Positions 11,793 to 28,681 of a stretch of 28,681 nucleotides of DNA are shown in pieces. The stretch is from a virus. Under the pieces are notes generated by a model. That model was not told the DNA's origin. It saw only the letters and a program-made list of their open reading frames with translations, and ran no database searches. Location: positions 1-28,681 of the IMG/VR virus record IMGVR_UViG_3300032316_000635; one strand, given 5' to 3'. The position numbers and the translations under genes are program-made. The stretch's first letter is position 1. The number at the start of each line of letters is the position of its first letter.

Positions 11793-12345
11793 GCAAATTC
11801 ATGTGCAGGGCCACCAAGGCTGCATAACTCACAGCATGTGACTTTTTAAACGTATAACCACGCGATTCGTCCCCATCCCACACTTCGGCAAACACTTGAT
11901 CCCAGGGCCGTCGCTGTAGGTGTGCTTTGCCTGGTCTAATAATTGATATAAAAGCAGCCATCCTGGGTATGGAGTCAGGTTGCATTGTGGCCAACAAATC
12001 CACATAGTTGCCCACGTGAACCAACTGACCGGTCCAGGTTTGGTCTGTCCATAGTCGCGACCACGGAGGGGTTGCTGACAACATGGCTTCATAGTGTTCA
12101 GGATCACGAATCAACTGATACACACTCATGTTCAACAGGTCAATTTTGAAATAGCCACGCTGCTCTGCTGACTCATAGTCTATGGCTGCACAGCCGTGTT
12201 CGAGATCTTCGGGAATGTCTGTGACATAGACGCCTGAATTGTGCCGGCGTGGTCGACCATCCACAACCTGTCTAGCAGGAGTATGCCGGATCAGTTCTAG
12301 TATTTTACTACGATCCGGAACATCAATGTCAATGTCTGCACTCAT
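11767..12345 (-). CDS. Miniature DnaE-like (Pol III alpha palm) protein, 192 aa
   Basis: Short segments match bacterial DnaE in the right order. MSADIDIDVPDR aligns with the palm motif PDFDVDF (Asp6 and Asp8 correspond to the catalytic pair). RRHNSGVYV (His35) aligns with KHAGGVVI. GYFKIDLLNMSVYQLI (Asp69) aligns with VKFDFLGLRTL, carrying the third catalytic aspartate. MQPDSIPRMAAFISIIRPG aligns with the QPD...ALFRPGP segment, and GYTFKKSHAVSYAALV with GYGFNKSHSAAYAL. DnaE has about 1,160 residues, so the intervening DNA-binding parts, PHP domain and C-terminal domains are missing. The ATG at 12345 forms an ATGA overlap with the upstream stop; an ATG at 12360 is less likely. All three carboxylates are kept, so it may not be inert. 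Enzymatic activity is unproven. Confidence 0.8.
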   Translation of the reverse strand: MSADIDIDVPDRSKILELIRHTPARQVVDGRPRRHNSGVYVTDIPEDLEHGCAAIDYESAEQRGYFKIDLLNMSVYQLIRDPEHYEAMLSATPPWSRLWTDQTWTGQLVHVGNYVDLLATMQPDSIPRMAAFISIIRPGKAHLQRRPWDQVFAEVWDGDESRGYTFKKSHAVSYAALVALHMNLLNQSDAQV

Positions 12346-13250
12346 GTGAAATAGTTCCAACTTAATTTGGCATTGATATATGCTTCTTCGATCAAATTTA
12401 CATCAATAACGTTTGGCGTGGTATTACTGCGTATTTGTTTAATAATCTCATTGCATTTAAATTTAGAATCTTTGTATGGCTGTCTTTGCAAAAACTCATT
12501 GTGCAATTCCTCAATGTCACTTTGACAAGTATACGATATTTCTGCCCATTCAGCAACCTTTTTGATTTCTTGCAAAAACTCTGTCATGTTGTAAAAGCAT
12601 CGAAATGGCCACTGATATACTTGTTTGGTTGTATTGTATTTTGCTTGCTGTTGTCTAACAATAAATCCGTGTTGCTCTGGATGTAAAAATCCAATCTGAA
12701 AAAATTCTCGCAGAATTGATCTTGGGCAGTTGGGTTGATCTGGTGATAATTCTAGCAACTCTAATTTGTGTTGCTGTATGCATTCTTGTTTGATTTTTGT
12801 TGGCAAATTTTTAAATTCATCTAATGTAGTAACCATGGGCCAAGACGGATCTTTGACTGCATTGTAACTGTCTTGAATTTGATTGGTAAAAAAATTCTGT
12901 ACAATATTTTCCAACACCCATTTATATCCTGGATTATTAAGTTTGTTATAGGTGTTGATTTCTAGTTGATTGTTATCGAACCCAAGATCTCCTGCTCTAA
13001 GCAAACTGATTTGTTGAAGTTGTAGCAAATCATCTACATCAATATGTATATCAATTACTTTGTCAAACACCAGTGGCTTGGGCCAAAAGGAATAATGATC
13101 TGCAAAGAATATTTTGTTACCAATGTATTTTTTAGCATGCGATGCACCATGTTCGTTGAATGGTGTTCCTGCAGTTATTCCTACAATTTTATTGCACACA
13201 AACTCTAAATAATTGCCATGTGCGCCGCCTTGAAAATCAATGTGTATCAT
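12342..13250 (-). CDS. AT-rich hypothetical protein, 302 aa, accessory cargo
   Basis: I recognise no family with confidence. The N-terminus MIHIDFQGGAHGNYLEFVCN carries a Gly-Gly-x-His-Gly motif after a beta strand, which recalls a nucleotide- or PAPS-binding start, but it is not a standard P-loop. The rest is rich in Asn, Gln, Ile and Lys, mixed alpha/beta, without membrane segments. The DNA is clearly more AT-rich than the uvsW or structural genes and similar to the adjacent radical SAM gene. Both junctions are ATGA overlaps. It sits among radical SAM and accessory genes, so a modification or transferase role is conceivable but unsupported. Confidence 0.75.
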   Translation of the reverse strand: MIHIDFQGGAHGNYLEFVCNKIVGITAGTPFNEHGASHAKKYIGNKIFFADHYSFWPKPLVFDKVIDIHIDVDDLLQLQQISLLRAGDLGFDNNQLEINTYNKLNNPGYKWVLENIVQNFFTNQIQDSYNAVKDPSWPMVTTLDEFKNLPTKIKQECIQQHKLELLELSPDQPNCPRSILREFFQIGFLHPEQHGFIVRQQQAKYNTTKQVYQWPFRCFYNMTEFLQEIKKVAEWAEISYTCQSDIEELHNEFLQRQPYKDSKFKCNEIIKQIRSNTTPNVIDVNLIEEAYINAKLSWNYFT

Positions 13251-13600
13251 GTTCTACACAATGCCACAACAGTTTTCAATTGCTGTTCGGCCTCACGCAC
13301 AGCCCCCAGGGCATCGGCCACAGCAGGATACTGTTCAGCCATGCGCCGGGCTTCTGCTTCTTTGTCACGCTGTTCTCTCACCCAGTCAAGTAAAAGTTCA
13401 GCATCTGGGTTGAGTCCAACCCAGCATTGACCTAGACTGAGCGGTTGCCAACCAGTACCGTTGTACACTTCCAGTCGTTGAGAGCTGGTATTATATTGTA
13501 ACTGCCCCACACCCATGTAACCAGCGTTGTTGATATAATTACTACCAGTGCTGTTAGCAACTGTCACATACTTGCCAGTTTGCGCAATATTTCCTATCAT
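13247..13600 (-). CDS. Small virion/fibre-like protein with helical tail, 117 aa
   Basis: Residues 1-55 (MIGNIAQTGKYVTVANSTGS, GQLQYNTSSQRLEVYNGTGW) match the short beta module found at the ends of many phage tail and fibre proteins, where a line of text like LRYNTTTGRLEVYDGTGW recurs. Residues 60-117 are a charged helix, probably a coiled coil (REQRDKEAEARRMAEQYP). It is joined by ATGA overlaps to a radical SAM gene upstream and the AT-rich unknown downstream. Whether it is incorporated into virions or was carried in with the accessory genes cannot be told. Confidence 0.75.
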   Translation of the reverse strand: MIGNIAQTGKYVTVANSTGSNYINNAGYMGVGQLQYNTSSQRLEVYNGTGWQPLSLGQCWVGLNPDAELLLDWVREQRDKEAEARRMAEQYPAVADALGAVREAEQQLKTVVALCRT

Positions 13601-15102
13601 GTCAATTTCCTTGCTGCTTCTAATTCTGGAATATAATCTGCCAATTTGATATTTCTTGACTGATCCAATTTGTCATTGAATTCAAAAAAGGCGTTGAGTT
13701 TTTCCAAATCCAATTTGAAATTTTTGTCATAGTGCATTATAACACCGTCAATAAAACTTTGCAACAATAAATCATTACGATAACATTTTAATTGTCTAAT
13801 GCGTACCAAACTTTCTAATATCAAATTCCTATCTGGAAAATTCAATGCAGAAAATAGGTCATTTGTTGAATTGGCAAACTGACAATGTACCAATGTTGCA
13901 GAAAATTCTTGATCAAAAAATACCAACAGATCATACAATCGAAAAATATTGTATATGGATACTGTTGTATTAAATGATACCACATGGTTTTGTTCTTTAA
14001 GATATCTAACGTTGTCAACTATTGTTTCCCATTTGCTAGGCCAACGTATGTAATGATTTAATTCACCAAGCCCGTCAATACTGATAATAAATTGAAAGTT
14101 GGAAAATTCTTTAAGTTGTTTTTTAAATTTATCGCTGAGTTTGGTACCATTTGTGTTAACAACAAATTCAAAATTTGTCTGTTTGGTTTGTATGCACTTT
14201 TCAACAAAATTATAAAATTCCGGCATTGCAGTAGGTTCGCCGCCGGCAACATACAATTTTTTAATATTTTCAAGTTTAACAAAATCAAAATTTGCATAAT
14301 TTTTTTTGTTGTAGTCAGTGATCAAATTAATTTTTTTATATTCTTGTGCTATTAGGTTACTGCTGTCTGGTCCACAAGTTCTACACTGTAAATTACAGGT
14401 GTTGCCTGGACGAACTTCATAGTACACTGGATGTTGTAAATTATTTAGATCATCAATGCTATGTAAATTCAACCTGTTGGCCCATTCAACAGTTTCTTGC
14501 ATTCTTGCACTCAAGATGCCGCGTTCTTCAAGATTGTAACAGCTAAAACAGTGCTCGGGCATGAGTATCCCCGACAACATGTTGTTTCTTATTTTTTGAT
14601 AGTGTGGATCTGTTTTAAAATCTACAATGTCCGACAACAATGTTATTGGTGTATTTGATCTACAACACACTGTTGTTTGACCATTGTTTGCTAATAATTC
14701 TATAAATGGAAAAATGCAAAAACTTTTATTTGTTTTTGTTAGATCTTCAAAAAATGTTATATTGGTGTTGTATGTTGAATCTAAGTATACCACTGGTACT
14801 GTGGCATTGATTTGTTTGGCAGCGCGAATAGTTTTATAAAATGCGTCAGGATGAGAATATTGTTCTCGTGACTGATCTAATATCACAATTTGATCAAATT
14901 CTTGTGCTAAATCAATCAGTCGATGATATTCTAAATCATACACGCTAGAATGATAATAACCTGGATATTGTATTAATTCTAAGTCAATCACATGATCAAG
15001 TTCAGAAATTAATCCGTGACACTGGACTGATTGTTGTTCGGCCAGTCGACGAGTTTTGGCATCAGTGTCTTCAGTGTTATTTCCAAGGCATAAAATTCGC
15101 AT
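13597..15102 (-). CDS. Radical SAM protein with N-terminal twitch-like domain, 501 aa
   Basis: The radical SAM core contains CNLQCRTC (Cys236, Cys240, Cys243; CxxxCxxC) for the 4Fe-4S cluster that binds SAM, then VAGGEPT (GGEP at 287-290) and ISIDGLGE. Upstream of the core, residues 128-190 hold further cysteines (FCIFPFIELL, TVCCRSN, HCFSCYNLEERG). They resemble the auxiliary-cluster ligands of SPASM/twitch domains but lie N-terminal. The first 120 residues are a separate alpha/beta region. The start ATG at 15102 overlaps the upstream stop as TAATG; a longer frame to 15201 exists but would overlap by 100 bases. The gene is AT-rich. The substrate is unknown; peptide or protein modification is typical of twitch-bearing relatives. 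Confidence 0.88.
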   Translation of the reverse strand: MRILCLGNNTEDTDAKTRRLAEQQSVQCHGLISELDHVIDLELIQYPGYYHSSVYDLEYHRLIDLAQEFDQIVILDQSREQYSHPDAFYKTIRAAKQINATVPVVYLDSTYNTNITFFEDLTKTNKSFCIFPFIELLANNGQTTVCCRSNTPITLLSDIVDFKTDPHYQKIRNNMLSGILMPEHCFSCYNLEERGILSARMQETVEWANRLNLHSIDDLNNLQHPVYYEVRPGNTCNLQCRTCGPDSSNLIAQEYKKINLITDYNKKNYANFDFVKLENIKKLYVAGGEPTAMPEFYNFVEKCIQTKQTNFEFVVNTNGTKLSDKFKKQLKEFSNFQFIISIDGLGELNHYIRWPSKWETIVDNVRYLKEQNHVVSFNTTVSIYNIFRLYDLLVFFDQEFSATLVHCQFANSTNDLFSALNFPDRNLILESLVRIRQLKCYRNDLLLQSFIDGVIMHYDKNFKLDLEKLNAFFEFNDKLDQSRNIKLADYIPELEAARKLT

Positions 15103-15791
15103 TACCATCCTGCCTGTTTCAATATTAGTTTTGCGTATTCTGTGTCTGCGGCATAGTCTGAGAATTTCTTTTGCCACACATCTGAATCTATGTAAGGCCA
15201 TATCATGCCCACCTGATCAGCAGTGAGTTCGCCCAGGAACTTTTGCCCCGACTCTGAATTGTATATCACCCAAGGACTGATGCGTCCGGTAGTGATAGCA
15301 TGGCACATGGCATGTGTACTACCGTAACGCAAACAATCATGTGGCGAGGCCGAGTGTTTTTCACTCCAGTCTATGCCAAACTCCACTGCTCGTGCCAGTG
15401 CATCTGCCACTGCTTCTACCTTTAGGTAGTCCAGCAAGTATTCGGTATAGACTTTGTCACTGCCCCAGTTGTCAATCTTTTTGTTGTGTTTCAGCAACCA
15501 TTCTGTGAACTGTCTAGGATTGATTACCTTTGTGGCCACACAGTATCTGCCAAATTTTACAAATGCTCGGTAGTAAGGTGAGTCAGCAAAGTCATCAAAT
15601 GTTTTGAGTCGAGCCGAGCCTTGTGCAATCTCATAGAAACGCAAGTAGGATTGAAAGCCCAGTTCAACACCACGTTCACTGCGTTCTTGTCGTCGTCGTT
15701 TGGGCTCACACATGTGAACCACAAGACTTTCTGCACGACGAAATGTTTTCTTGCAGTAACCGCAGGTCAGTTCACTTGATGTCTCGGCCAT
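15102..15791 (-). CDS. Zinc-finger-containing conserved phage protein, 229 aa
   Basis: The N-terminus carries a C2H2-like finger: CGYCKKTFRRAESLVVHMCE, with two cysteines, a spaced His and a further Cys, followed by a basic patch (PKRRRQERSER). The remaining 180 residues are helical and soluble, with motifs such as FVKFGRYCVATKVINP and WVIYNSESGQKFLGEL. I know it only as a conserved type in aquatic T4-like phages. A nucleic-acid-binding role is suggested by the finger. The start overlaps the upstream gene by 20 bases, and the stop forms TAATG with the following radical SAM gene. Its composition is closer to the core genes than to the AT-rich neighbour. Confidence 0.82.
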   Translation of the reverse strand: MAETSSELTCGYCKKTFRRAESLVVHMCEPKRRRQERSERGVELGFQSYLRFYEIAQGSARLKTFDDFADSPYYRAFVKFGRYCVATKVINPRQFTEWLLKHNKKIDNWGSDKVYTEYLLDYLKVEAVADALARAVEFGIDWSEKHSASPHDCLRYGSTHAMCHAITTGRISPWVIYNSESGQKFLGELTADQVGMIWPYIDSDVWQKKFSDYAADTEYAKLILKQAGW

Positions 15792-16221
15792 GGTCTCGAA
15801 TGTGTTGATCTAGTTCTTTCTTTGTGGTCATTGATGCCAGCATGGCTATTTCATCTTCTTTGTATGTGGGAAATAACTCGGCCAACTGTTTTCTAATGCT
15901 GCTTGCTCCTGCACCTGTTTCTTTCTTCTTGGGCGAGATCCAGTTGTGTCTGGGTGTGCCCATGTCTGGACTCACTGTGGTAGCACACAACCATTGCAGT
16001 TCAGGATGACGGCTGATGTTGAAGAAGTGTTTGTTCAATCGCTCGTTGGTGGAAATCAAATAAAATTCTTGCATCTCCTTGGAACCTTCCACACATGATG
16101 CCCAACGAATCATGAGATAGTTGGAGAACTTCTTGCGTTCCTCATCTGTGAGATCACGATAGAAGTTTCTGTTTTTGCGATCCAGTTGTCGCATCTCATT
16201 GGCAATGGTCAGTTTATCCAA
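15772..16221 (-). CDS. Conserved phage protein, possibly clamp-loader small subunit (gp62-like)
   Basis: From the chosen TTG start the protein is 149 residues: MDKLTIANEMRQLDRKNRNF, then LTDEERKKFSNYLMIRW, NERLNKHFFNISRHPELQW and a PKKKE basic patch. Proteins with this pattern in aquatic T4-like phages are, as far as I recall, sometimes annotated as the clamp-loader small subunit; no diagnostic motif proves it. The start is uncertain. TTG at 16221 overlaps the upstream stop by 8 bases and gives the most natural N-terminus. An ATG at 16194 loses nine residues, and an ATG at 16281 adds a 68-base overlap. It is co-transcribed with the zinc-finger gene, overlapping it by 20 bases. Confidence 0.7.
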   Translation of the reverse strand: MDKLTIANEMRQLDRKNRNFYRDLTDEERKKFSNYLMIRWASCVEGSKEMQEFYLISTNERLNKHFFNISRHPELQWLCATTVSPDMGTPRHNWISPKKKETGAGASSIRKQLAELFPTYKEDEIAMLASMTTKKELDQHIRDHGRDIK

Positions 16222-17272
16222 TTTGTAACGTCTCTCTGTATATACTGTGTTTGACCGGCAAATTGTCAAACCATTTTTCATTTCGATAATTGTCTTGTAT
16301 CATTTGCTGGGCCAAGAAACGATACCAGTTGGTTTCATTATAACGTTGATTGCGCAAAGCGTCAATTGCTCTTTGCATGTTGAACTTTTCAGCAAATTTT
16401 GACTGTTGTAACATGTTTATTAGAGCAGGACGGTATTGATCTGGAATGCTTCCTAGTCCAATAATAGAGTCCGCATTGGCCAACACTGGTTCAAATTGAT
16501 TTGGAGTTAGCCATGCAAAATATTCTAACAACTCAGAAAACCACCAAATATTAATAGCACTGATCACCGTGGCAATTTTAATATTACAGTTTGTTTGGGT
16601 GAGAACCCATTTTAAATTAGACTCCACTGTGTTCCAGTCACTGCCACTGCGCACTATGTCTGCATACTTGCCCACAGCATCTATACTTGCATGAACATTA
16701 ATACAACTAAATGATGGCCATAGATCTTTCACATGTTTTGATTTGGCTCCCAACACAGTCATGTTGGTACTGTACATGATTGCAGGATCAGCACCTTGTG
16801 CAATTAATTTTTCAAGCACTTGGTAATGTTGCGGGTTTAGCAGTGGCTCACCACCTGCAAAATAAATTTGTTTGCACTCACTTAGATCCATGTCTGCCAC
16901 ATTGATTGGATTGTACAAACTTATGTCTTCTACTCCGGCTTCACTGGCCCAGCTGGTACTGAATCCTGGACCGCAACTGCGACACTTTAAATTGCAAAGA
17001 TTGTTGTTGCGAAAATCTAAAAATTTTATCTTGTGTGTGGCATAGTCTGTTTCATAATTTTTATACATTCCTCGCCAGCCTTCGGCATCTGGAGGACAAG
17101 AATTTGCACATTCACGAGGAACTTCTCCCCGTAGAAACGCACCACCCACCTGCGCAGTCATTTCCTCGCGGCTGCTGAACTGTGGGCCGTTCCAGGCACA
17201 GCAAGGTGTGTATTTGTTGCCGGGCATGTAACACACACTGGTCCAAGGTGCTTTACAAAAAACTTTATTCAT
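16214..17272 (-). CDS. Radical SAM protein with N-terminal twitch-like cysteines, 352 aa
   Basis: CNLKCRSC (Cys93, Cys97, Cys100) provides the SAM-binding 4Fe-4S cluster. FAGGEPLLNP follows (139-148), and ASIDAVGKYAD fits the later core strands. The N-terminal 60 residues carry Cys6 (FCKAPWTSVCYMP), Cys24-Cys25 (TPCCAWNG), Cys55 and Cys59 (ECANSCPPD), the ligand pattern of a twitch/SPASM auxiliary cluster placed before the core. It is a shorter, distinct relative of the 501-residue radical SAM protein three genes downstream. The ATG at 17272 overlaps the upstream stop as ATGA; a longer frame to 17365 is less likely. Substrate unknown. Confidence 0.9.
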   Translation of the reverse strand: MNKVFCKAPWTSVCYMPGNKYTPCCAWNGPQFSSREEMTAQVGGAFLRGEVPRECANSCPPDAEGWRGMYKNYETDYATHKIKFLDFRNNNLCNLKCRSCGPGFSTSWASEAGVEDISLYNPINVADMDLSECKQIYFAGGEPLLNPQHYQVLEKLIAQGADPAIMYSTNMTVLGAKSKHVKDLWPSFSCINVHASIDAVGKYADIVRSGSDWNTVESNLKWVLTQTNCNIKIATVISAINIWWFSELLEYFAWLTPNQFEPVLANADSIIGLGSIPDQYRPALINMLQQSKFAEKFNMQRAIDALRNQRYNETNWYRFLAQQMIQDNYRNEKWFDNLPVKHSIYRETLQIG

Positions 17273-17577
17273 TTTACTTTGACTAATTTGTATATCATTA
17301 TAGCACGTTCCAGTGCGTCTTGTAAAGCAGGTGTGGTTTTTGCCAGTCTGTGGATGTCGCCCCACATCTTGCTTTCCATTAGATGATCATGTAAGAGTCT
17401 GCCATCGGGTGTTCGTTTATCGTAGTCTATTTTATGACCAGATACCGGATCGTATTCCGTACCAGATTCATATCCTACCACTTGGCGTGTGCTAGGATCT
17501 GCTCCAAACTCTCGAGCATACACAATGCCGTCGGTACGCTCGTAAATGTATGTGGCGTCGGGTTTAAGGCTGCCCAT
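17269..17577 (-). CDS. Conserved phage hypothetical protein, 102 aa
   Basis: From the ATG at 17577 the protein starts MGSLKPDATYIYERTDGIVY, with AREFGADPSTRQVVGYES and a helical C-terminus (LQDALERAIMIYKLVKVK). I associate it with small conserved proteins of aquatic T4-like phages; no function is known. An ATG at 17598 would add seven residues and increase the overlap with the preceding small gene from 14 to 35 bases, so 17577 is preferred. The stop overlaps the radical SAM start as ATGA. Confidence 0.75.
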   Translation of the reverse strand: MGSLKPDATYIYERTDGIVYAREFGADPSTRQVVGYESGTEYDPVSGHKIDYDKRTPDGRLLHDHLMESKMWGDIHRLAKTTPALQDALERAIMIYKLVKVK

Positions 17578-18249: not shown

Positions 18250-18959
18250 TGCCAATCCAAGGTAAGATCAAATAATATTTGACAAAATTCTTTGTGTGCC
18301 CAGGCAGGATTGTGTGTTGCAGTGTAACGAATTGGTGTTTCCCAATTTGATGGACCATACGGCATGTCATAAGGAGACTGTTTGGTAGTAGGCCACACTC
18401 GATCAACCCAGTTCCAATTGTGTTGTGACATCCATCCAGGAATTAACACAAAAGGAATACCAGATTTTGTTAGTTGTTCCAGCCCATTACAGATCATGTA
18501 GTAATCTTTTTGTGATTGTAACGCAGGATCATGTAGGCAAGCAATGTAATGTTTGAGTGCGGCCAGTTTCGAATCGCTTAATAAATCGGTATGTTGTTTT
18601 TCAATTAGGTTATTGAATGTGTCTGAAATTACTTTTACGTCAATAGAAGTCACATGTTGTTGGGCAGCACATCTATAGTTACGATAATCAATGTCGGTCA
18701 GTTGATACAGCTGATGTTGGCTGTCTAGTGAAACGTCAAAACGATCTGAACTAGTAAGTCCTATCACAACATAATCAGCTTGTTCACTTATCGCACGATC
18801 TATTTGCAGGCGAATACAAAAGTTAGTGGCGCCGGGTCTGGCCAGACTGACATGAGTGAAGTTTTTACGCCTGGAATACAATTCATTGAAACTGACAATG
18901 CCATCATCAGGGCAGTCAGTGGTCATAAAACTGTCGCCTAGACTAAAAAACTTTTTCAT
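18246..18959 (-). CDS. SGNH/GDSL-type hydrolase-like protein, 237 aa
   Basis: MKKFFSLGDSFMTTD carries a GDS block I motif with Ser10. RPGATNFCIRLQID follows, with Gly43 and Asn46 placed like blocks II/III. ADYVVIGLTSSDRF corresponds to the strand before the usual G-x-N-D block, and ATHNPAWAHKEF near the C-terminus supplies His216 or His222 for the catalytic dyad. Such enzymes remove acyl groups from polysaccharides or other esters; the substrate here is unknown. The ATG at 18959 forms an ATGA overlap with the uvsW stop. The 3' end contains the -35 of the next promoter. Its position within conserved genes and its AT-rich text suggest inserted accessory cargo. Confidence 0.78.
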   Translation of the reverse strand: MKKFFSLGDSFMTTDCPDDGIVSFNELYSRRKNFTHVSLARPGATNFCIRLQIDRAISEQADYVVIGLTSSDRFDVSLDSQHQLYQLTDIDYRNYRCAAQQHVTSIDVKVISDTFNNLIEKQHTDLLSDSKLAALKHYIACLHDPALQSQKDYYMICNGLEQLTKSGIPFVLIPGWMSQHNWNWVDRVWPTTKQSPYDMPYGPSNWETPIRYTATHNPAWAHKEFCQILFDLTLDWH

Positions 18960-20425
18960 TTGATCTTCATCCACTCAAGTTTTTCTTGAGTAAACGGATA
19001 GTTGGCTTCACGGTAAAACTGTTTGCGCTTGGTCAAGTGACGCTTGGCAAACTTACAAGTTGAAGTTATGTCCCAGATTTGAACATGGTCTTTGTCTTCT
19101 GCTTTTCTGATACCCCGGCCAATGCTTTGGATGACTCTAACAAAACTTTTGCCAGGCTCTACTAGCACAAGGTTGAAAATTCGAGGTATATTGATACCAA
19201 CTGCTGCTACACCATATGTGGCCACAATAATTTTATCAGTTGACTCGGCCACTTCATCATATTCAGCTTGTCTCTTTGTGCCTTTGGTTGCGCCTGACAC
19301 AAACACTGCTCGATCTCCCAGTCTTGCAACCAGTTGTCTACCGCATTCAGTACGATCCACCAATACCAATGTATTGCCTGTTTCGTTGACCTGCCGCACA
19401 AGGTCAGCCATGGTGTCCAAGCGCCCTGATTCTTCCAGCAGGTATTTGAGTTCGCTTTGGTAGTCTTTGTACTCCACATGGTCTATCAACTGCACAATGT
19501 TCACATGACAGTTGGCCAGCACGCCTTGCTGTTGCAGTTCACTGGCACTGAGCCGACCAATCACAGGACCAAGACTCACCAGCAAGGCTTGGCTTTCAAA
19601 CTTTTCTTTGGGCACAGTTCCTGTCAATCCCCAGCGAATTGGCACTGTGGACATTACACCTGTTAGCAAGGTCTTTAGTGCATCTGCCTTGGCCATGTGA
19701 ACTTCGTCCACAATAACGCACACAACATCTTCAAGAAACTCACCTATGGTGCAGTCGCCTATGCCGGCCTTGGTGTTCTTCAACAAGTTGTTTAGGCTCT
19801 GCCAGGTGCATATGGTGTGTTGACGTCCGTATTCTTTTCTGTCGCCAAAGTACACACCAACGTCTTGTTGCATGTTGATATAGTCTGCTTCTGTTTGTGT
19901 CACAAGACTTTTGTTGGGCACAATCACAATGCTCCGACCATAAGGTGCCACAGCATTGCTCAAGGCTGCTGTCATAATGGTCTTGCCTGCACCTGTGGCC
20001 ACTTCTTGTATGCATTGTGGATTGGCCAGAAAGTTGTTGATGATCTCCACTTGGTAGTCACGCATCATTATGGATTCACCCACAGCCGGATGTCCTTTGG
20101 GCCAATGTACATGTGCAAATGATGTTTCTGTTACTTGCTCAAAATTGAATGTGTTTGAATAGTCGCGCTGATCATCCAATTCAATATCATAGTCAAACCT
20201 CTCCAATATAGGCATGATCTCAGGCAACAGGTTTACATAAGTTGATCCACCCAGTTGGAAGTACGCTACCTTGCCGTCCCACCGTCCCAGGCGCACTGCT
20301 GGCAAATAACGTGCGGCAGGGTTTTCATATTTGAAAGCCGTGACCAGAGCCTTGCGAGCATCCAAGTCTAGTCCTTCAATCTTGATGTTTACTTCATCAC
20401 GTATTATAATTGTTGCTGTTGGCAT
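18956..20425 (-). CDS. uvsW: UvsW-type recombination helicase
   Basis: The 489-residue protein is a superfamily 2 helicase: motif I ATGAGKT (143-149), motif II DEVH (240-243), motif III LTGTVP (268-273) and motif VI QSIGRGIR (434-441). The N-terminal 110 residues (RLGRWDGKVAYF, a small DNA-binding-type domain) match T4 UvsW, as does the overall length (T4 UvsW 503). UvsW unwinds branched DNA and R-loops, resolves stalled forks and shifts T4 from origin- to recombination-dependent replication. It is the first gene of a long minus-strand chain. A TTGACA/TATACT promoter lies 30 bases before the ATG. No Shine-Dalgarno is evident. Confidence 0.95.
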   Translation of the reverse strand: MPTATIIIRDEVNIKIEGLDLDARKALVTAFKYENPAARYLPAVRLGRWDGKVAYFQLGGSTYVNLLPEIMPILERFDYDIELDDQRDYSNTFNFEQVTETSFAHVHWPKGHPAVGESIMMRDYQVEIINNFLANPQCIQEVATGAGKTIMTAALSNAVAPYGRSIVIVPNKSLVTQTEADYINMQQDVGVYFGDRKEYGRQHTICTWQSLNNLLKNTKAGIGDCTIGEFLEDVVCVIVDEVHMAKADALKTLLTGVMSTVPIRWGLTGTVPKEKFESQALLVSLGPVIGRLSASELQQQGVLANCHVNIVQLIDHVEYKDYQSELKYLLEESGRLDTMADLVRQVNETGNTLVLVDRTECGRQLVARLGDRAVFVSGATKGTKRQAEYDEVAESTDKIIVATYGVAAVGINIPRIFNLVLVEPGKSFVRVIQSIGRGIRKAEDKDHVQIWDITSTCKFAKRHLTKRKQFYREANYPFTQEKLEWMKIK

Positions 20426-20455: not shown

Positions 20456-20484
20456 AGTATAAATATTTTTATGATAGATGTCAA
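20456..20484 (-). promoter_or_regulatory. Sigma-70-type promoter for uvsW
   Basis: On the minus strand, TTGACA (20479-20484, perfect) and TATACT (20456-20461) have a 17-base spacer. The predicted start lies about 25 bases before the uvsW ATG. The element overlaps the first codons of the plus-strand oxygenase gene and the TATAAATA box on the other strand. Confidence 0.8.
20458..20465 (+). promoter_or_regulatory. T4-type late promoter box, possible leaderless start (TATAAATA)
   Basis: An exact TATAAATA on the plus strand is followed after five bases by the ATG of the oxygenase gene. T4 late transcripts start about six bases downstream of this box, so the message would begin at the ATG. It shares bases with the divergent uvsW -10 box, so occupancy of one side should exclude the other. 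Confidence 0.55.
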
Positions 20485-21088
20485 TCTCAATTGTGGAATT
20501 ATCAATAATTTCTTTTCTGCAGAAGAATCTACTAAATTAATCCAAACGTTTCAAAAGTTGCAACCAGTGGATGGGGCTGGCAACAATTGTTATGGAATAG
20601 ATCGAAAACATTTGGCCTTCAACTGGTTTAAAAAGATTTTTTTAAACGCTTTGGCTAAAAAGTTTGATCCAAATCTCAAACTTATTTTTGGAATGCTACT
20701 TGATTGTACAGTTCCATTTGATATACACAGCGATATCAAACCACTTCCAGAAGTAAATGGCAAAAGTTACATGAGTTGTTTGTTACCATATAGTGTAAAC
20801 TACGATACTGATTTGTGTAATCAAGCATCAACAATAATATTTAACGAACAATGGGGCCCATTGGATCAATTACCATTGGTGGAAAACAATATTTCAGATA
20901 TTTATGAATCAATGATCAGCCACACTTCTCCTGAATACTGTGATCGATTTAGTGTTAAATTGATAGCAAACTGGAACATAGGTGATTTGATCTGGTGGGA
21001 TAGTCGACTGGCTCATGTCAGTAATAACTTTATTTCACAGGGGTATCAATCTAAACAATGCATTGTGGTTCACACTTATGTACTCTAA
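20471..21088 (+). CDS. 2OG-Fe(II) oxygenase-like protein, 205 aa
   Basis: The protein contains [12 protein letters not shown] with an HxD pair (His86, Asp88), and a distal [11 protein letters not shown] with His182. Lys195 and VVHTYV follow at the spacing where 2-oxoglutarate-binding Arg/Lys usually lies. This is the facial-triad layout of the 2OG-Fe(II) dioxygenase superfamily in a double-stranded beta-helix of typical phage length. The substrate is unknown. The ATG at 20471 is preferred over one at 20450, which lies before the late box. The gene is AT-rich, has no Shine-Dalgarno and overlaps the aminotransferase-like gene by 11 bases, so the two are probably one unit. Confidence 0.78.
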
Positions 21089-21908
21089 AGACCAGTTGTT
21101 GAGTGGTAATCTTCCACCATTGAACGATCCGTTGTTTGTTGCGTTTCAACAAAGTGCTCTTCTTGACAGTAATTTATATCAAGGGGCGAATCCCCACAAT
21201 ACATTCATCAATGCTTGCCAAGAATATTTTTTGTCATCAAAAATTAATTCGTTGTCTGGATTGGATATGATGGCATCAACTGACATAATTTTAGGATGTC
21301 ATCACTTTATTGACAACTTGATTTTAAAACACGGGTTAGATAATCTACAAATTTTCCAACACGATTACAAGTACTACAGTAGATTGAATCCTACTATAAC
21401 TTACAGCAAAGTTGGCCAGTTGGTTCCAGGTAAACCAGTGCTGATTGCAACACCATTTCCTGGAGCACTGGGTCTACATTCTGATTGGGGGGAAATTTTA
21501 GATGAGTGTGACCAGAAAAACATTCCAGTTCATATTGATGGTGCTTGGTACAGTGCGGCAAGAGACATACATATAGATTTGACTCGTACTTGTATCCAAA
21601 GCATAGGCATAAGCCTTAGCAAAGGCTGTGGGTTGCATTGGAATCGAGTTGGTGTTAGATGGTCTAAAACTCAAGATCCAACAGACTCAATAACCATTAT
21701 GAACAAATTTAACATGATACCCGAAGCGGTTGTACGAATTGGATTGTCAGCATTGACCACTGTTCCAATTGACTACTTGTGGAACAAATACGAAAAACAA
21801 TATCAACAAATTTGTCGAGAACTTTTTTTACGCCCATCAAACATTGTGCATGCGGCATTCAGTATTGATAGAAAAATTCTCTATGGACTACACGATTGTT
21901 TTGTTTAA
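21078..21908 (+). CDS. PLP-dependent aminotransferase-like protein, short form, 276 aa
   Basis: Fold-type I PLP enzyme signatures appear in order: [32 protein letters not shown] with Asp154 (pairs with the pyridine nitrogen), and [19 protein letters not shown] with Ser181-Lys182 as the candidate Schiff-base lysine and Arg190. Typical class I/II aminotransferases have about 380-420 residues. This one ends soon after the large domain, so most of the C-terminal small domain is missing or replaced. The ATG at 21078 overlaps the oxygenase gene by 11 bases; a longer in-frame ATG at 21015 is less likely. It is AT-rich like its partner. Activity and substrate are unknown. Confidence 0.78.
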
Positions 21909-21927
21909 TAAGTCTTCTCGCTGACCC

Positions 21928-22006
21928 AAAAAAAACAGGGACCGAAGTCCCTGTATAAAGCCCGGGCCGGAGCCAACCAATGCCCGGGTTAACCCTAGAG
22001 GGTTAA
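21928..22006 (-). terminator. Three-hairpin terminator block with UUCG tetraloop
   Basis: Three stems lie in tandem between convergent genes. ACAGGGAC/GTCCCTGT (21935-21954) is closed on the minus strand by the stable C(UUCG)G tetraloop and followed by eight T (21928-21935), a strong rho-independent terminator. CCCGGGC (21961-21967) pairs with GCCCGGG (21982-21988). TTAACCCT pairs with AGGGTTAA (21989-22006) and includes the stop codon of the last early gene. The minus-strand early transcript ends here. Confidence 0.88.
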
Positions 22007-22218
22007 TCTTTTGAGTTAACCGATGTCTTAAACAAGAAGCCACACAGGATAGTGATGCCCCAGGCCTGCAACCAGGTAACTTCTTTGACAGAAGGCACTG
22101 CATCAACCAAGCAACCATTCCACAGCATGTACACAGGCCAGCTCAGTAAGAAACTCAGTAACAGAACTCCTACAATGGCAATCACAATGGCACCAACAAA
22201 CACTCCAAATTTTTCCAT
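22003..22218 (-). CDS. Small membrane protein, 71 aa, early
   Basis: From the ATG at 22218 the protein begins MEKFGVFVGAIVIAIVGVLL and continues through a hydrophobic segment to about residue 31. A polar loop (NGCLVDAVPSVKEVTW) precedes a second hydrophobic segment (about 50-64, AWGITILCGFLF). The two-helix hairpin predicts an inner-membrane protein. A GGAG Shine-Dalgarno six bases before 22218 supports that start over the ATG at 22230. It is the last gene of the AAA+ transcript, directly before the terminator block. Function unknown; an early membrane protein could alter the host envelope, which is inference. Confidence 0.78.
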   Translation of the reverse strand: MEKFGVFVGAIVIAIVGVLLLSFLLSWPVYMLWNGCLVDAVPSVKEVTWLQAWGITILCGFLFKTSVNSKD

Positions 22219-22337: not shown

Positions 22338-23366
22338 TCAGGCACTCTTCATGCAAGTGGTCTCTGCAAGACGCTTCCAGTTGCCTGCAAAGCTCTTGCG
22401 CAAGTCTGCAATTTTCAGCGCCATGCGCAGGCTCATTTCACGCAAACGATTTTGGTGTGCTTCCATGAACTCAATGATCTCGTCCTGCACACACTCTTCA
22501 AAATCATAGTCTGCAAACAACACGCCGTCCTTGGCAATTTGTTTGATACGCAGGACCTTGTCACGCATGGTGTCCAGGGTCAAGTCCAGGTAGTGACAAC
22601 GACTTTGCAATGCATCCAAGTGATCGCGCAACTTTTGCGATTTCATTTGGTCGAACTTCAAGTTAGTGATAAAGATTACACTACCTTTGAATTCGAAACG
22701 ATCTGGGATGCCTTCACGACGCAGAGTGCTAGACTCACTCAACCATGAAATGGTACGCTTCTTGCCAGAGTCCAGGGCACCTTTCAGCAAGTTTAATGCC
22801 ACGTCATCCAGCAGGATGCTGTCACAGTCATCAAACACCAACACACAGTTGTCGTCTGAATATTTGTACAAGGCTTGATACAAGCCAATGGGTGTGGCTG
22901 AGCCCTTGACAACTTCGGCACGGAGTCGCTTGCCGGCCAGTTTATCAAACAGTGTGGCCTTTTCAATCTCTTGCTCAACGCCAAACGATTTGCCAACTCC
23001 AGGAGGACCTGACACAATCATTGCACGGATGTCACCGTTCACACAGGCCTTTGTCATCTCATGCAAGATGTCAAAACGCTCACGAATACGTGCCATGATT
23101 TGTTCTTCTGTTTCGGCCTCTATTTGAGGCTTGGCAAATGCCACTGTATTTTCTTTGCTCACTGCATCTCCATTGACATACTCGATGTCGCTGATGTTGT
23201 TGACTTTGATACGGATGGTGTCGGGGCAATTGGGAAATGCACCGTTGTTTTCTACTGTCACGAAATTGCCTTTGGCGCCAGATTGAAAGCCTGACACAAG
23301 ATTGAAAGCGATGTTGCGCACGGGTCGGTTGCGATACACACCACTAATAACACGAATTGCACTCAT
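22338..23366 (-). CDS. AAA+ family ATPase, 342 aa, early
   Basis: Walker A is GPPGVGKS (120-127), Walker B is CVLVFDDCDSI (174-184), and VIFITNL supplies the sensor 1 Asn. IPDRFEF precedes it, as in AAA+ proteins with an arginine near the subunit interface. The first 85 residues form a separate beta-rich domain (NRPVRNIAFNLVSGFQSGAK, TIRIKVNNIS). The C-terminal part is helical. It is not the T4 clamp loader gp44 by its motifs and I know no specific function. The start ATG at 23366 has an AAGGAG Shine-Dalgarno and a sigma-70 promoter about 44 bases upstream. It heads an early unit with two very small genes. Confidence 0.88.
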   Translation of the reverse strand: MSAIRVISGVYRNRPVRNIAFNLVSGFQSGAKGNFVTVENNGAFPNCPDTIRIKVNNISDIEYVNGDAVSKENTVAFAKPQIEAETEEQIMARIRERFDILHEMTKACVNGDIRAMIVSGPPGVGKSFGVEQEIEKATLFDKLAGKRLRAEVVKGSATPIGLYQALYKYSDDNCVLVFDDCDSILLDDVALNLLKGALDSGKKRTISWLSESSTLRREGIPDRFEFKGSVIFITNLKFDQMKSQKLRDHLDALQSRCHYLDLTLDTMRDKVLRIKQIAKDGVLFADYDFEECVQDEIIEFMEAHQNRLREMSLRMALKIADLRKSFAGNWKRLAETTCMKSA

Positions 23367-24165: not shown

Positions 24166-24915
24166 CTAGCACCAGTTGTTGGCAATTATGGGATCAGCCA
24201 CACACTCATGCGGCTTGGGCTTGCCGTGAAACACCAAGATGCTGGTGTCACCAGTGAGATACGGTCCGGCGCCAGTCCCGGGTCTTTTTGCTCTCCTGCC
24301 GGCAAAGTCATAGCCACCATCGGCCACTTGCCAGCGCCAGCTCTGAATATGTTTGGCATCAAAGTGACGCCTGTCAGGCACAGGTATTGCCGACCCAATG
24401 TAGTCTTGATCACCGGCATAATATCGCACAGTTTGTTCAATGTCTTTTTTTATAAAATCTTGCCACACATGAGCAAATTTTGGCACATTCCACCACATCA
24501 CGCTGGAGTTCATGCCGGTATAGGTTTTTTTCTGCAATACCCTAAAGTCTTGTATGGTCCAAAAATTACTAGTAGACAACTGACCAATCCAATTTAGATC
24601 ATTGACAATCACACAGTCAAGATCAATGTACAACAAATTGCCGGCGTGATGTTCAGGATTGAACAACTGCATTTTGTACCACCAACTTTTTTTAGGTCCT
24701 GCAATGCCAGGCCAATCTTGAAGACAATGTTTGATCATGTGATCGGGCACTGATCTTTCAGGTTCGGTGTATACATGGAACCGAATTGGTCCATTGAGTT
24801 TTTTGGTCACTGAATTGTACAGGTGCTCTACATAGATCCAATCATAGCCTGTGTGGTGTATCACACAGGCCACATCAGTCACACCGTCAGTGCTGTTGCG
24901 ATTCTTTTTAGCCAT
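24166..24915 (-). CDS. GT-A glycosyltransferase-like protein (GT8-type), 249 aa
   Basis: LLYIDLDCVIVNDL carries a DxD metal/sugar-nucleotide motif (Asp98, Asp100) at the end of a beta strand, as in GT-A enzymes. TGMNSSVMWWNVP, GDQDYIGSA (about residues 168-176) and VFHGKPKPHE near the C-terminus match the acceptor-side and final His/Lys motifs of GT8-like enzymes. It probably transfers a sugar from a nucleotide sugar; donor and acceptor are unknown. AAGGA lies just before the ATG at 24915. It overlaps the end of the preceding minus-strand glycan gene by 37 bases. Confidence 0.82.
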   Translation of the reverse strand: MAKKNRNSTDGVTDVACVIHHTGYDWIYVEHLYNSVTKKLNGPIRFHVYTEPERSVPDHMIKHCLQDWPGIAGPKKSWWYKMQLFNPEHHAGNLLYIDLDCVIVNDLNWIGQLSTSNFWTIQDFRVLQKKTYTGMNSSVMWWNVPKFAHVWQDFIKKDIEQTVRYYAGDQDYIGSAIPVPDRRHFDAKHIQSWRWQVADGGYDFAGRRAKRPGTGAGPYLTGDTSILVFHGKPKPHECVADPIIANNWC

Positions 24916-25730
24916 AGTCCTTGTCTTAGTTCTTCCACAGTGTATTCAGTGTGGCAAATCTTGATCAACCACGATTCCCTGTCTACATTATAAGATTGTT
25001 CAATGTCAGCATAGCCCACTGCCACTGGGTATGCCAAACTACTGTGTGCCACAATGGGTCTGCAACCTGCAATACCTGCCTGTATTCCCGGTCCTGAGTT
25101 GTGATTCACAACAGCATGATAATTAAAGTGCATGTCAAAACTGTCATAGGTATTGGCCACAGGACGTGCAACTTCTATGGTGGTATTTTGGGGCAAGTAT
25201 GGCATTTGTAACGGAGATCGAGGATGTGCTCGTATGCATATGGGGCGATCAGTGGAGTTTCGTAATTGTTGAATTTGCATCAACACCCATGATTCCATGC
25301 TGTCAATGCCGGTAACTTGCAGACTATTACGATGCTGTGCGGCAATTATAATTTCTGGTCTAGGATTAACTTGTGTGGCCAAACTTATTTGCAATTGTCG
25401 TGGACGGTCCCAGTCTAAATTGCATTCGTGTCCGTAGTAACCATCCCGGGTGATGTGATTTACTGCTAGTTTCCAGGTCTGTCCACGGTACAATGCACCA
25501 ATGTCTATCACAATCACAGGTTTGCCTTGGCTGCGATAGTGTTCGTACACCCCTTGATTGGCTCGCATTCTGCCGTGCCATAGCACTGACCAAATTACCG
25601 CGGCATCTGCTGTCCGAGAGTTTTCTTGTGTTTGTATGCCCGCAGCCTGACAACAATCCAAGAACGCACTCATCACAGGCTTGGAATTCAATGCACACTG
25701 AGCAGGAAAATAGGCTATGCTTTTGATCAC
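24879..25730 (-). CDS. GT-B/capsule-type glycan protein, 283 aa
   Basis: The C-terminal half contains CIRAHPRSP, FDMHFNYHAVVNHNSGPG and IQAGIAGCRPIVAHSS. This is the donor-binding pattern of GT-B-like capsule/CDP-glycerol-type transferases, in which a conserved His and a glycine-rich turn face the nucleotide. The same layout occurs in the plus-strand 268-residue protein at 26523, so the two are related. The N-terminal half is a second alpha/beta domain (AVIWSVLWHGRM, VIVIDIGALYRG). The start is probably the GTG at 25730 (MIKSIAYFPAQ); an ATG at 25766 would overlap the divergent gene. Substrate unknown. Confidence 0.72.
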   Translation of the reverse strand: MIKSIAYFPAQCALNSKPVMSAFLDCCQAAGIQTQENSRTADAAVIWSVLWHGRMRANQGVYEHYRSQGKPVIVIDIGALYRGQTWKLAVNHITRDGYYGHECNLDWDRPRQLQISLATQVNPRPEIIIAAQHRNSLQVTGIDSMESWVLMQIQQLRNSTDRPICIRAHPRSPLQMPYLPQNTTIEVARPVANTYDSFDMHFNYHAVVNHNSGPGIQAGIAGCRPIVAHSSLAYPVAVGYADIEQSYNVDRESWLIKICHTEYTVEELRQGLWLKRIATALTV

Positions 25731-25738
25731 TGTAAATA
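25731..25738 (+). promoter_or_regulatory. Possible late box, leaderless spacing (TGTAAATA)
   Basis: TGTAAATA, one mismatch from TATAAATA, ends five bases before the ATG at 25744, the same spacing as the exact box before the oxygenase gene. It lies in the 13-base gap between divergent glycan genes. Confidence 0.4.
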
Positions 25739-25743
25739 CACTT

Positions 25744-26526
25744 ATGAAATACACTGTAGTTACCACTTTTAATGCCGAGGGATATAACTCTTACGGCCAA
25801 AGAATGATTCAAACTTTTTTGCAGACTTGGCCTCAAGACGTCATGCTCCGAGTGTACGCTGAAGGTTGTCAAGTGACCGAAGCTGCACCCAATCTTGAAG
25901 TATTGAATCTAGAAGGGGTCAGTGCTGATCTTGTAGCATTCAAAAACAAGTGGCGCAATGTGCCCAAGGCCAATGGCAATATTGGACCAGGCAGTGAACG
26001 CAAGGCATTCAAATGGCAAGCAGTGCGTTTTGCTCACAAAGTATATGCCATATTCCATGCAGCCCAGCATGCCACAACAGATTGGTTGATTTGGATGGAC
26101 GCTGACATGGTGTGTCATAGCCCAATCACTGTGCAATGCATCGACAAATTCTTCCCGGTGGACAGAGAACTGTGTTATGCTGGACGCAGTAACAAGTTCT
26201 CTGAATGTGGACTTTATGGTATGAATTTAAAACGTGACCCGGTGCTGAAGTTTCTTGCAGAGTTTCAGCGCATGTATGACGATGCTGAACATGGTATCTT
26301 TACACTCAAAGAATGGCACGACAGTTATGTGTTTGATGATGTCAAAAACCGCAGCGGCCTAGCAGAACTAAACTGGTCAGCAGGCCTGATCAATGGCGAA
26401 GGGCATCCCTTGATCAACTGTGAGTGGGGCGCATACATTGACCATCTCAAAGGCAAACGCAAAAACGATGGTCGTAGCAAAGCCAAAGACCTTGTGGTTC
26501 GTCGCACTGAACTATACTGGCAATGA
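25744..26526 (+). CDS. GT-A glycosyltransferase-like protein, 260 aa
   Basis: MKYTVVTTFNAEGY begins with a typical GT-A first strand. TTDWLIWMDADMVC carries DxD at Asp119-Asp121. EWHDSYVFDDV and a late NCEWGAYIDHLKG follow, where the acceptor-side residues usually lie. The basic C-terminus (KGKRKNDGRSKAKDLVVRR) could bind a phosphorylated glycan or nucleic acid. The start is the ATG at 25744; the frame is open upstream to 25717 but overlaps the divergent gene. No Shine-Dalgarno is present. The stop overlaps the next start as ATGA. Donor and acceptor are unknown. Confidence 0.82.
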   Translation: MKYTVVTTFNAEGYNSYGQRMIQTFLQTWPQDVMLRVYAEGCQVTEAAPNLEVLNLEGVSADLVAFKNKWRNVPKANGNIGPGSERKAFKWQAVRFAHKVYAIFHAAQHATTDWLIWMDADMVCHSPITVQCIDKFFPVDRELCYAGRSNKFSECGLYGMNLKRDPVLKFLAEFQRMYDDAEHGIFTLKEWHDSYVFDDVKNRSGLAELNWSAGLINGEGHPLINCEWGAYIDHLKGKRKNDGRSKAKDLVVRRTELYWQ

Positions 26527-27329
26527 TATTCCTGAGCAAGAATGGCGATGACGAATACATTGACATGTATGCACATGGGCTTGGGCTACAAAGCACTCCG
26601 TTGGAGTCCTGGCGCTACGAGGACAGCACAGAACCACTCATGCTACGCGGCATTATGAAACACAAGATCATCAAACAGTGCTGGGCCGATGGCAGACCAT
26701 TTAGATACATGGACTCAGGATATCTGGGCAATCGTCCCAGTTCAAAAAATCCTCATGGCTGGAAACACTGGCACCGAATTGTGCCCAACAACTTACAACA
26801 CGATCAGGTCATACCACGACCCAGCGACCGTTGGAATCAACTGGGTCTGGAAGTGGCCAATCGTCGTCGAGGCAGCACTGTGTTGATTGTGGCACCTGAT
26901 GAGAAGCCTTGCAAATTTTACGACATTGAACTAGATGACTGGTTGACAGAAACCGTTGCTACTATTAAACAACACACTGATAGACCCGTTATTATACGTG
27001 AACGCAATCGAAGTCGCACAGATAGAAAAACAAATCGTGTGGAAAATGCCTTGAATGATGTGCATGCTGTGGTAACATTCAACAGCATAGCAGGCACCGA
27101 AGCCATCTTGGCAGGTGTGCCTGTGTTTGCCATGGCACCCAGCAATGCAGCCAGGCCGGTGAGCAACACAGACTTAACAAAAATAGACAATCCATGGTGG
27201 CCTGACCGTGATGAGATCCTGGCCTGGGCATATCATTTGGCCTATGCTCAGTTTCACATAGACGAATTCAAAAACGGACAAGCAGAACGCATACTTAAAC
27301 AAACAGAGGAAATGCTGTATGGGCCGTAG
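26523..27329 (+). CDS. GT-B/capsule-type glycan protein, 268 aa
   Basis: The C-terminal half has PVIIRERNRSRTDRK, HAVVTFNSIAGTEAILAGVP and FAMAPSNAARPVS, the donor-site pattern of capsule-type GT-B transferases and a clear relative of the minus-strand 24879-25730 protein. The N-terminal half (FRYMDSGYLGNRPSS) is a separate domain. It is translationally coupled to the GT-A gene by an ATGA overlap, so the two probably act on the same glycan. No membrane segment is present. Confidence 0.75.
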   Translation: MIFLSKNGDDEYIDMYAHGLGLQSTPLESWRYEDSTEPLMLRGIMKHKIIKQCWADGRPFRYMDSGYLGNRPSSKNPHGWKHWHRIVPNNLQHDQVIPRPSDRWNQLGLEVANRRRGSTVLIVAPDEKPCKFYDIELDDWLTETVATIKQHTDRPVIIRERNRSRTDRKTNRVENALNDVHAVVTFNSIAGTEAILAGVPVFAMAPSNAARPVSNTDLTKIDNPWWPDRDEILAWAYHLAYAQFHIDEFKNGQAERILKQTEEMLYGP

Positions 27330-27367
27330 ACCACTTAACATTGCAACCATTTGTGTTTGAATATACT

Positions 27368-28063
27368 ATGAAATCGTTTATAATTAGATTAAAACACAAT
27401 AAAATTTCCGAAGAACAAGCCCGAGACTGTGTTGAACAAGCCCAAACATTCAACATAGATGTTGAATACTTTGATGCTATAAACGGACTTGAACATCAAG
27501 CGCATTGCAAAAAATTAAACATACGGCCGTTAAAATTCTTTAAGAAAGGTCTACCAGGAGTGTATGGTTGTTTGTTGAGTCATTACTATCTTTGGTTAAA
27601 ATGCGTAGAACTAAATGAGCCCATAGCAATACTGGAACATGATGGTTATTTTATTAGGCCATTGCCCAATGATATTTTAGATAAATTTCAAGACGTGTTA
27701 AAATTAGATTCAGTAAATCCTTACGATCCAGAGTATTCAAAAATCATACAAGATTCATTCCATGATGATTATGAGCTAGAAATTACTGAAATCAACAACA
27801 ATGAAAAATTACATAATGACGCTGGCTTTTATTCCTGGGGATCTTATGCATATATCATCAAGCCCCATGCCGCGCAAAACATAATTAACTGGATCGCTGT
27901 ACATGGATTTTTGCCATCAGATCATCAATTGGGCACACGAGTAGCACGTATAGAAACTTGCCGTCCAACCATGGCAAGATTGCATCCATTTTATGCTGTA
28001 GACAATAACATTAACACAATGTCACTGACCAGAAATACAAAATTTTTGTCAAATCAAGAGTAA
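27368..28063 (+). CDS. GT25-family glycosyltransferase-like protein, 231 aa
   Basis: MKSFIIRLKHNKISEEQARD is the N-terminal strand-helix of GT25 (LPS/collagen-type) transferases. GLPGVYGCLLSHYYLWLKCV matches the conserved G-C-x-x-S-H segment. IAILEHDGYF (Glu90-His-Asp92) stands where most members have EDD. The C-terminal part GFLPSDHQLGTR matches the (D)xxL acceptor-site region. The gene is AT-rich compared with the two preceding glycan genes. The start at 27368 follows a 38-base gap without a clear Shine-Dalgarno. It probably adds galactose or glucose to a glycan; the exact sugar is unknown. Confidence 0.8.
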   Translation: MKSFIIRLKHNKISEEQARDCVEQAQTFNIDVEYFDAINGLEHQAHCKKLNIRPLKFFKKGLPGVYGCLLSHYYLWLKCVELNEPIAILEHDGYFIRPLPNDILDKFQDVLKLDSVNPYDPEYSKIIQDSFHDDYELEITEINNNEKLHNDAGFYSWGSYAYIIKPHAAQNIINWIAVHGFLPSDHQLGTRVARIETCRPTMARLHPFYAVDNNINTMSLTRNTKFLSNQE

Positions 28064-28078
28064 ACAAGGAGATATCAA

Positions 28079-28681
28079 ATGTATGAATACCAAGGGTGGT
28101 GGTTCCCAGATGCCGAATCACATTTTCCAAAGATGCTGAAGAAAAGCATAGACAAAGGCGGACCGGCTGAATATCAATATCAGGTGCGTGACCGTAGCAT
28201 GACACACGCTAAGAAGCGCGGTGTTGCACTGGACATCGGAGCCAATGTAGGGTTATGGAGTCGTGGTCTATGTAAAAACTTCCGCACTGTTGTGGCGTTT
28301 GAGCCAGTGGCCATGTTTCGTGAGTGTTTGATCCGTAATGTTGTTGCTGACAACTTACAGGTCAAAGACTTTGCACTGGGTGATAAACGCACACAGGCCA
28401 CCATGATCATCACAGAAGGCAACACCGGTCATACACACATTGATCCCGACACATTGGGCACAGGTGATACTGAAGTGTATCGATTAGATGATTTAGAATT
28501 AGATGAAGTAGACTATATCAAAATGGACTGCGAAGGTTACGAATATCGTATATTACAAGGTGCAGAACAAACTATCAAGCAATGTCGTCCAGTTGTGGTA
28601 GTAGAGCAAAAACCGCACGATGCCTACAGTGATCAGTATGGGCAACATGCTGCCATTGAACTCATGAAAAGTTGGGGCATG
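28079..28681 (+). CDS. FkbM-family methyltransferase, 3' end cut by window
   Basis: 201 codons are visible from the ATG at 28079, which is preceded by AAGGAG eight bases upstream. ALDIGANVGLWSR (51-63) is SAM-binding motif I. VVAFEPVAMFRECL follows (motif II with Glu). YIKMDCEGYEYRILQGAE is the FkbM signature strand. VVVVEQKPH comes near the edge. FkbM enzymes O-methylate sugars or other hydroxyls; here it follows glycosyltransferases, which suggests methylation of the same glycan. The C-terminus is outside the window. Confidence 0.9.
   Translation, partial: MYEYQGWWFPDAESHFPKMLKKSIDKGGPAEYQYQVRDRSMTHAKKRGVALDIGANVGLWSRGLCKNFRTVVAFEPVAMFRECLIRNVVADNLQVKDFALGDKRTQATMIITEGNTGHTHIDPDTLGTGDTEVYRLDDLELDEVDYIKMDCEGYEYRILQGAEQTIKQCRPVVVVEQKPHDAYSDQYGQHAAIELMKSWGM

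Follow-up and report, generated by a model that had tools for sequence, protein, structure and literature searches.

An overlapping gene pair for a probable 2OG-Fe(II) oxygenase and a short fold-type I PLP protein in viral DNA

Gene pair and late-promoter motif

Two overlapping plus-strand genes, flanked on both sides by minus-strand genes, lie within a 28,681-base viral record; the whole of this stretch is referred to here as the window. The upstream gene (P0001; 20471..21088, +) encodes a probable 2OG-Fe(II) oxygenase of 205 aa with H86, D88 and H182 as its metal set and K195 as the likely 2-oxoglutarate anchor. The downstream gene (P0002; 21078..21908, +) encodes a short fold-type I PLP enzyme of 276 aa that carries D154, W157, S179, K182 and R190. 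The two ORFs share an 11-nt overlap. A helicase-like gene (18956-20425, minus strand), presumably UvsW-like, flanks the pair on one side, and an AAA ATPase gene (22338-23366, minus strand) flanks it on the other. GC content is 0.34 for the oxygenase gene and 0.38 for the PLP gene vs. 0.46 for the flanking helicase-like gene. An earlier note on this DNA had described an AT-rich overlapping pair at 20471-21908, and its ORFs, coordinates, base composition and quoted residues (H86, D88 and H182; D154 and K182) were all confirmed. Both ORFs and their overlap are common to homologues. We conclude that the two ORFs are real genes, beyond chance, on the basis of the shared ORFs and overlap, the low dN/dS ratios and the conserved residues.

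Two terminator-like hairpins follow the pair: one with a T tract (21935..21954, minus strand) would serve the convergent, minus-strand side, and the other (21986..22009, plus strand) lies 3' of the pair. Both were called by a consensus scan alone, in which three such sites were found vs. 1.3 expected. Neither P0001 nor P0002 has a match above the cut-off in Pfam, PHROG, NCBIfam or the PDB, or any match in INPHARED, and in a search of four proteins against the PADLOC-DB models no family was matched at E 0.1.

The T4-type late promoter motif TATAAATA is present at 20458..20465 (+), one of two copies in the window (0.54 expected). Across 17 distinct tandem loci, counted as one per near-identical set and excluding L018 and L049, in which the oxygenase lies on the other strand, the motif lies 60 nt or less ahead of the oxygenase start in nine (vs. 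0.32 expected from shuffles) and was not seen in the remaining eight. It precedes 4/297 of the other ORFs in the same loci, a baseline that includes frames possibly not genes, and is found near 9/64 unpaired PLP ORFs over a wider stretch. The nominal probability of the enrichment before the pair, 3e-13, overstates the case because the loci are related by descent. The spacing of the motif varies (-13, -18, -31, -41 and -42), which speaks for its repeated retention.

In four loci (the window, L002, L003 and L024) the motif occupies precisely positions -13 to -6 relative to the oxygenase start codon. In T4, the late motif takes up the same positions, -13 to -6, relative to the transcription start, according to the passages on late promoters in PMC1524935. 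Since the motif-to-ATG spacing in these four loci equals the motif-to-transcription-start spacing in T4, a leaderless mRNA is predicted for them by analogy. The same passages place putative late promoters of the compared phages only before orthologues of T4 late genes (PMC1524935), so that an accessory unit under a late promoter would be unusual. Judged from the motif, the pair is apparently expressed late in infection.

The oxygenase and the PLP protein

The HxD...H set H86/D88/H182 is invariant in 25/25 distinct oxygenases, and K195, the predicted 2OG anchor, is kept in all 24 alignment rows that have a residue at that position. 2OG-Fe(II) oxygenases carry a basic residue about 8-13 positions after the distal His, which serves 2OG, and the residues of P0001 sit in what we take to be the C-terminal pattern typical of these enzymes. 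The fold could not be modeled (pLDDT 37), and profile searches of Pfam, PHROG and the PDB gave no supporting match. The sole PDB profile match, a cyclodipeptide synthase (0.17), was taken as chance. Comparison with PF05118-type neighbors by hhalign revealed no likeness, and the oxygenase of L018 had no match in INPHARED. From its conserved residues, P0001 is very likely a 2OG-Fe(II) oxygenase; the same call in the earlier note holds as probable on the invariant motif.

Key residues of the PLP protein are conserved as well. In an alignment of 74 distinct proteins, one row of which is cut, D154 is kept in 74/74, K182, S179 and R194 each in 73/73, and W157 and H152 each in 73/74, while the R190 position holds 71 Arg and 2 Lys. 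The Schiff-base Lys and the Asp facing the pyridine N are thereby present in the SxSK...R context of the PLP family. None of the losses in homologues that the earlier note had envisaged, of K182 in the PLP protein or of H86, D88 or H182 in the oxygenase, was seen.

An AlphaFold model of the PLP protein was built from a four-sequence alignment (pLDDT 53). With this model of pLDDT only 53, Foldseek returned fold-type I structures (best E 5.4e-6), and VIA-align placed it in the aspartate-aminotransferase superfamily with Z 10.5-12.0 over 151-191 residues. The top structural matches are tied among ACC synthase, aminotransferases and the O2/PLP enzymes Plu4, RohP and MppP. A 36-member profile compared with the PDB matched ACC synthase 7 (0.013), L-allo-threonine aldolase (0.054-0.056) and aspartate aminotransferase (0.058); the lysine motif lines up in the printed alignments, and both the Lys and Asp motifs align with ACS7 and threonine aldolase. 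P0002 itself matched only Beta_elim_lyase in Pfam (0.16), and the best PLP-type match family-wide is Pyridoxal_deC (0.0031; 2/13 members). The weak matches are to amino-acid PLP families only, which is the reason for proposing amino-acid chemistry below.

The solved enzymes mostly extend about 100-120 residues beyond the aligned part, in the entries' own numbering, and the family is short throughout (271-322 aa, median 284, in 71 complete members). The C-terminal small domain with its substrate-carboxylate Arg is absent from the family. Because it is missing across the whole family, the protein is a native short form and not the product of decay in the phage. The earlier description as a fold-type I protein lacking most of the small domain is borne out by the superfamily match (Z about 12), the fully kept D154 and the early end of the matches, and the word "truncated" is replaced by this native short form; there was no sign of a second protein completing the active site, an idea also raised there. 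R265, a candidate substrate-carboxylate Arg, is kept in only 18/74 rows, and no family-wide carboxylate arginine is evident. As a guess, R194 may stand in for R265.

Judged from its motifs and predicted model, P0002 is a fold-type I PLP protein on a divergent short branch of the superfamily, and we do not file it as an aminotransferase. The short proteins were found here in viral contigs only, plus a single MAG contig one end of which is probably viral, and they form an undescribed family with at least 240 viral relatives in one search. Two PLP paralogues per contig were observed in L030, L036, L040, L051, L053 and L058.

Joint exchange and gene neighborhoods

Both genes are under purifying selection, with NG86 dN/dS values vs. 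L002 of 0.115 (oxygenase) and 0.101 (PLP), although some dS values were uncomputable or saturated. The overlap is 8 or 11 nt in tandem pairs with clear starts. In L018 and L049 the pair is convergent with a 27-nt overlap, so that adjacency is maintained even when the gene order changes. Pairwise distances for the two genes agree across 19 loci (Spearman 0.78; 0/302 permutations reached this value). Nine loci also contain the helicase, and there the oxygenase-PLP correlation is 0.93 vs. 0.58 and 0.68 against the helicase. The window helicase is nearest to that of L003 (95% identity; 84% to L002), but both genes of the cassette are nearer to L002 (83/80%) than to L003 (67/67%), which argues that the pair moved as a block. 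The oxygenase and PLP genes behave as one unit that is exchanged jointly relative to the helicase.

The PLP search returned 240 viral relatives, of which the best 80 were taken; together with earlier matches they gave 83 viral contigs including the window, plus L018. Several are near-identical in these genes (L006/L007/L008/L012; L023-L025; L027/L028). The oxygenase adjoins the PLP gene in 24/83 of the viral contigs and in L018, fractions that favor close relatives because the loci represent the best 80 of 240. The two genes are always adjacent in close relatives of the pair. The earlier note had named frequent separation of the two genes as counting against its reading. The adjacency in close relatives speaks for that reading, but in the wider survey the genes do separate: 59 PLP contigs (of 83, with the window uncounted and L018 counted) lack this oxygenase among the best 80 of 240 plus earlier matches, and the PLP gene is present in 17/22 untruncated oxygenase contigs, the five exceptions being L096, L097, L100, L101 and L102. 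A single paired clade was not rejected in the PLP tree (AU p 0.673, from a quick search with long branches).

The partners of each gene differ among contigs and are thus exchangeable. Of the 59 contigs without the oxygenase, 57 carry cluster C0 within 2.5 kb of the PLP gene, 41 the hydroxylase-type clusters C1/C15 (those members that were tested belong to PF05118) and 15 a PP-loop-type gene. C0 is called radical-SAM-type because two window proteins with PF04055 matches resemble it. In L015 the gene that overlaps the PLP gene encodes a different oxygenase (PF13640, 0.00029, below the cut-off). Conversely, an 11-nt overlap joins the oxygenase to a non-PLP gene in L097 (427-2572) and L102 (7965-10077); this gene reads to us like a B12 (cobalamin)-type radical-SAM enzyme. 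In 5/24 paired loci a convergent third gene, cluster C31, then follows the pair. A C31 remnant in the window was considered and dropped, as it amounted to an 11-residue resemblance (21888-21950) missed by blastp. Around the PLP homologues of L033, L035, L042, L052, L057, L079 and others, in viral contigs of up to 353 kb, genes of radical-SAM type and hydroxylase-like genes of HxD type are very densely packed and resemble biosynthetic clusters.

In L018, the stretch 6897-8738 at first looked like an aspartate-kinase-PLP fusion. The Nitrosopelagicus sequence of L018 agrees with five other genomes as far as nt 7876-7880, where the agreement breaks off within the kinase gene and the viral PLP gene is joined on; the kinase orthologues are mostly open frames of 454-494 aa, and the PLP part occurs in 1/31 genomes of the genus. 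L018 is probably chimeric through assembly, with one end of viral origin, or else carries a recent insertion, and was not used as evidence of fusion.

Known systems and proposed role

P0002 shares the fold, the D...SxSK(x7)R motif and the Asp-Lys arrangement with fold-type I enzymes of the AAT superfamily (ACC synthase, MppP/RohP/Plu4 and L-allo-threonine aldolase), but at about 280 aa it has no small domain and falls in no curated family above the cut-off. The phage 5-aminolevulinate synthase vAlaS is, we assume, of the same PLP fold type and larger. It too is a phage PLP enzyme in a co-located cassette, although the partners named in the vAlaS passages are heme oxygenase and bilin reductase, not a 2OG enzyme (PMC11480375). 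The 2OG-Fe(II) oxygenase auxiliary genes of pelagiphages are of the same proposed catalytic type and also have co-located partners, which in the account of these genes are ferrochelatases and not PLP enzymes (PMC9599517). Unlike those genes, the window oxygenase is matched by no family library.

Among cultured phages, the only INPHARED match to PLP relatives is in Pelagibacter phage Mosig EXVC030M, whose Mosig_00079 (QOI69043.1, "putative aminotransferase") is a 262-aa PLP homologue (profile E 4e-18) with 26% identity to an unpaired relative. The overlapping gene upstream of it is annotated FA_desaturase, and other neighbors, beside tail fibres, are annotated Asp_Arg_Hydrox, taurine dioxygenase, MoaA-like, carbamoyltransferase and nitroreductases; the oxygenase family has no match in this cluster. 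The metabolic cluster of Mosig corresponds to L108 282-16886. In the Mosig genome announcement, a term search gave no hit for oxygenase, aminotransferase or radical (PMC7892664). No described phage system matching the pair was found in the open-access literature searched, in agreement with the earlier note, and we conclude that the pair is an undescribed variant of known enzyme superfamilies.

We put at about 0.4 the probability that the pair is a mobile, late two-enzyme tailoring cassette of T4-like phages with a shared amino-acid-type substrate. The upstream product would be a 2OG-Fe(II) hydroxylase and the downstream product a compact PLP enzyme with its catalytic residues kept, both translated together and acting on the same amino-acid-type compound. 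Whatever their order, one step would hydroxylate this substrate and the other would perform PLP chemistry at its amino-bearing carbon, of transamination or retro-aldol/lyase type. Because the PLP site is open, the substrate may well be large, or attached to a carrier, peptide or glycan, and not a small free amino acid. The product would most likely serve the late phase, as a host-surface or virion decoration or as a small metabolite; of these candidate purposes of the cassette, decoration of the surface or virion ranks first.

A more specific form of decoration, in which an amino or hydroxy-amino acid group is placed on LPS or on tail or capsid glycans and alters superinfection or adsorption, is conceivable if somewhat unlikely. 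The late promoter fits it, as do the glycosyltransferase-like genes of the window (24166-28681), which include PF01755 "LPS biosynthesis", and the position of the Mosig homologue in a cluster adjoining tail fibres. The same run presumably contains an FkbM-like methyltransferase. The discussion of pelagimyophage host recognition in PMC7029224 reads glycosyltransferases as modifying the O-chain and describes radical-SAM cassettes there. These glycosyltransferase-like genes are, however, about 2.3 kb or more away and outside the unit, no sugar aminotransferase family match was seen for the PLP protein, and no glycan gene recurs beside the pair across loci. Hypermodification of DNA, in which hydroxylated bases would gain an amino group by PLP chemistry and protect the phage DNA, is very unlikely, although such pathways are established in phages in the parts of PMC9599517 and PMC12783734 that treat them, and replication-type genes flank the pair in many loci (C9 in 13/24, C12 in 10/24). 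Neither protein matched any modification family, and the nucleobase substrate offered by the earlier note gained nothing DNA-related; the promoter, late-type and not early, and thymidylate synthase in only 2/14 contigs, possibly fragments, are mildly against it. One thymidylate synthase gene was observed in G034 (the 302-kb contig of L029) at 140020-140748, less than 1 kb downstream of the paired PLP gene.

That the two genes encode independent accessory enzymes, in a common operon only because they travel together, is unlikely. The radical-SAM-like partner joined to the oxygenase by an 11-nt overlap in L097 and L102 favors independence, as do the 59 contigs with the PLP gene and without this oxygenase among the best 80 of 240 plus earlier matches, but adjacency is held in two gene orders, the gene distances agree strongly, and PLP homologues elsewhere lie near other hydroxylase-type genes. 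That catalysis disappeared along with the small domain, leaving the PLP protein as a dead or regulatory relic, is highly improbable: that domain and an evident family-wide carboxylate arginine are absent, yet the Lys, Asp, Ser and phosphate Arg are nearly invariant in 74 proteins and dN/dS is near 0.1. A bolder extension of the tailoring cassette, to a new class of phage peptide or protein tailoring systems whose PLP site, with the small domain gone, would admit side chains of a folded or ribosomally made substrate, is quite unlikely. Late in infection, the PLP enzyme and its interchangeable partners (this oxygenase, PF05118-type hydroxylases or radical-SAM enzymes) would install an amino or keto group once hydroxylation has taken place, and the window pair would be the smallest version of the large arrays in contigs of up to 353 kb.

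Its small size and self-contained nature make the pair a worthwhile target for testing. Such a compact cassette could be expressed and would offer a route to the products of the many hydroxylase and radical-SAM genes that are orphans in aquatic phages; if it acts on a peptide or a surface glycan, this would be late-phase phage chemistry not yet known.

Two radical-SAM genes (PF04055) occur elsewhere in the window, both on the minus strand. One lies in an AT-rich island (12342-15201, GC down to 0.32) that is absent from the matching stretch of L002, which instead holds a gene that we take to resemble KdsA. The other (16214-17365) has about 26% identity with the 420-aa type found after the PLP gene in many unpaired contigs.
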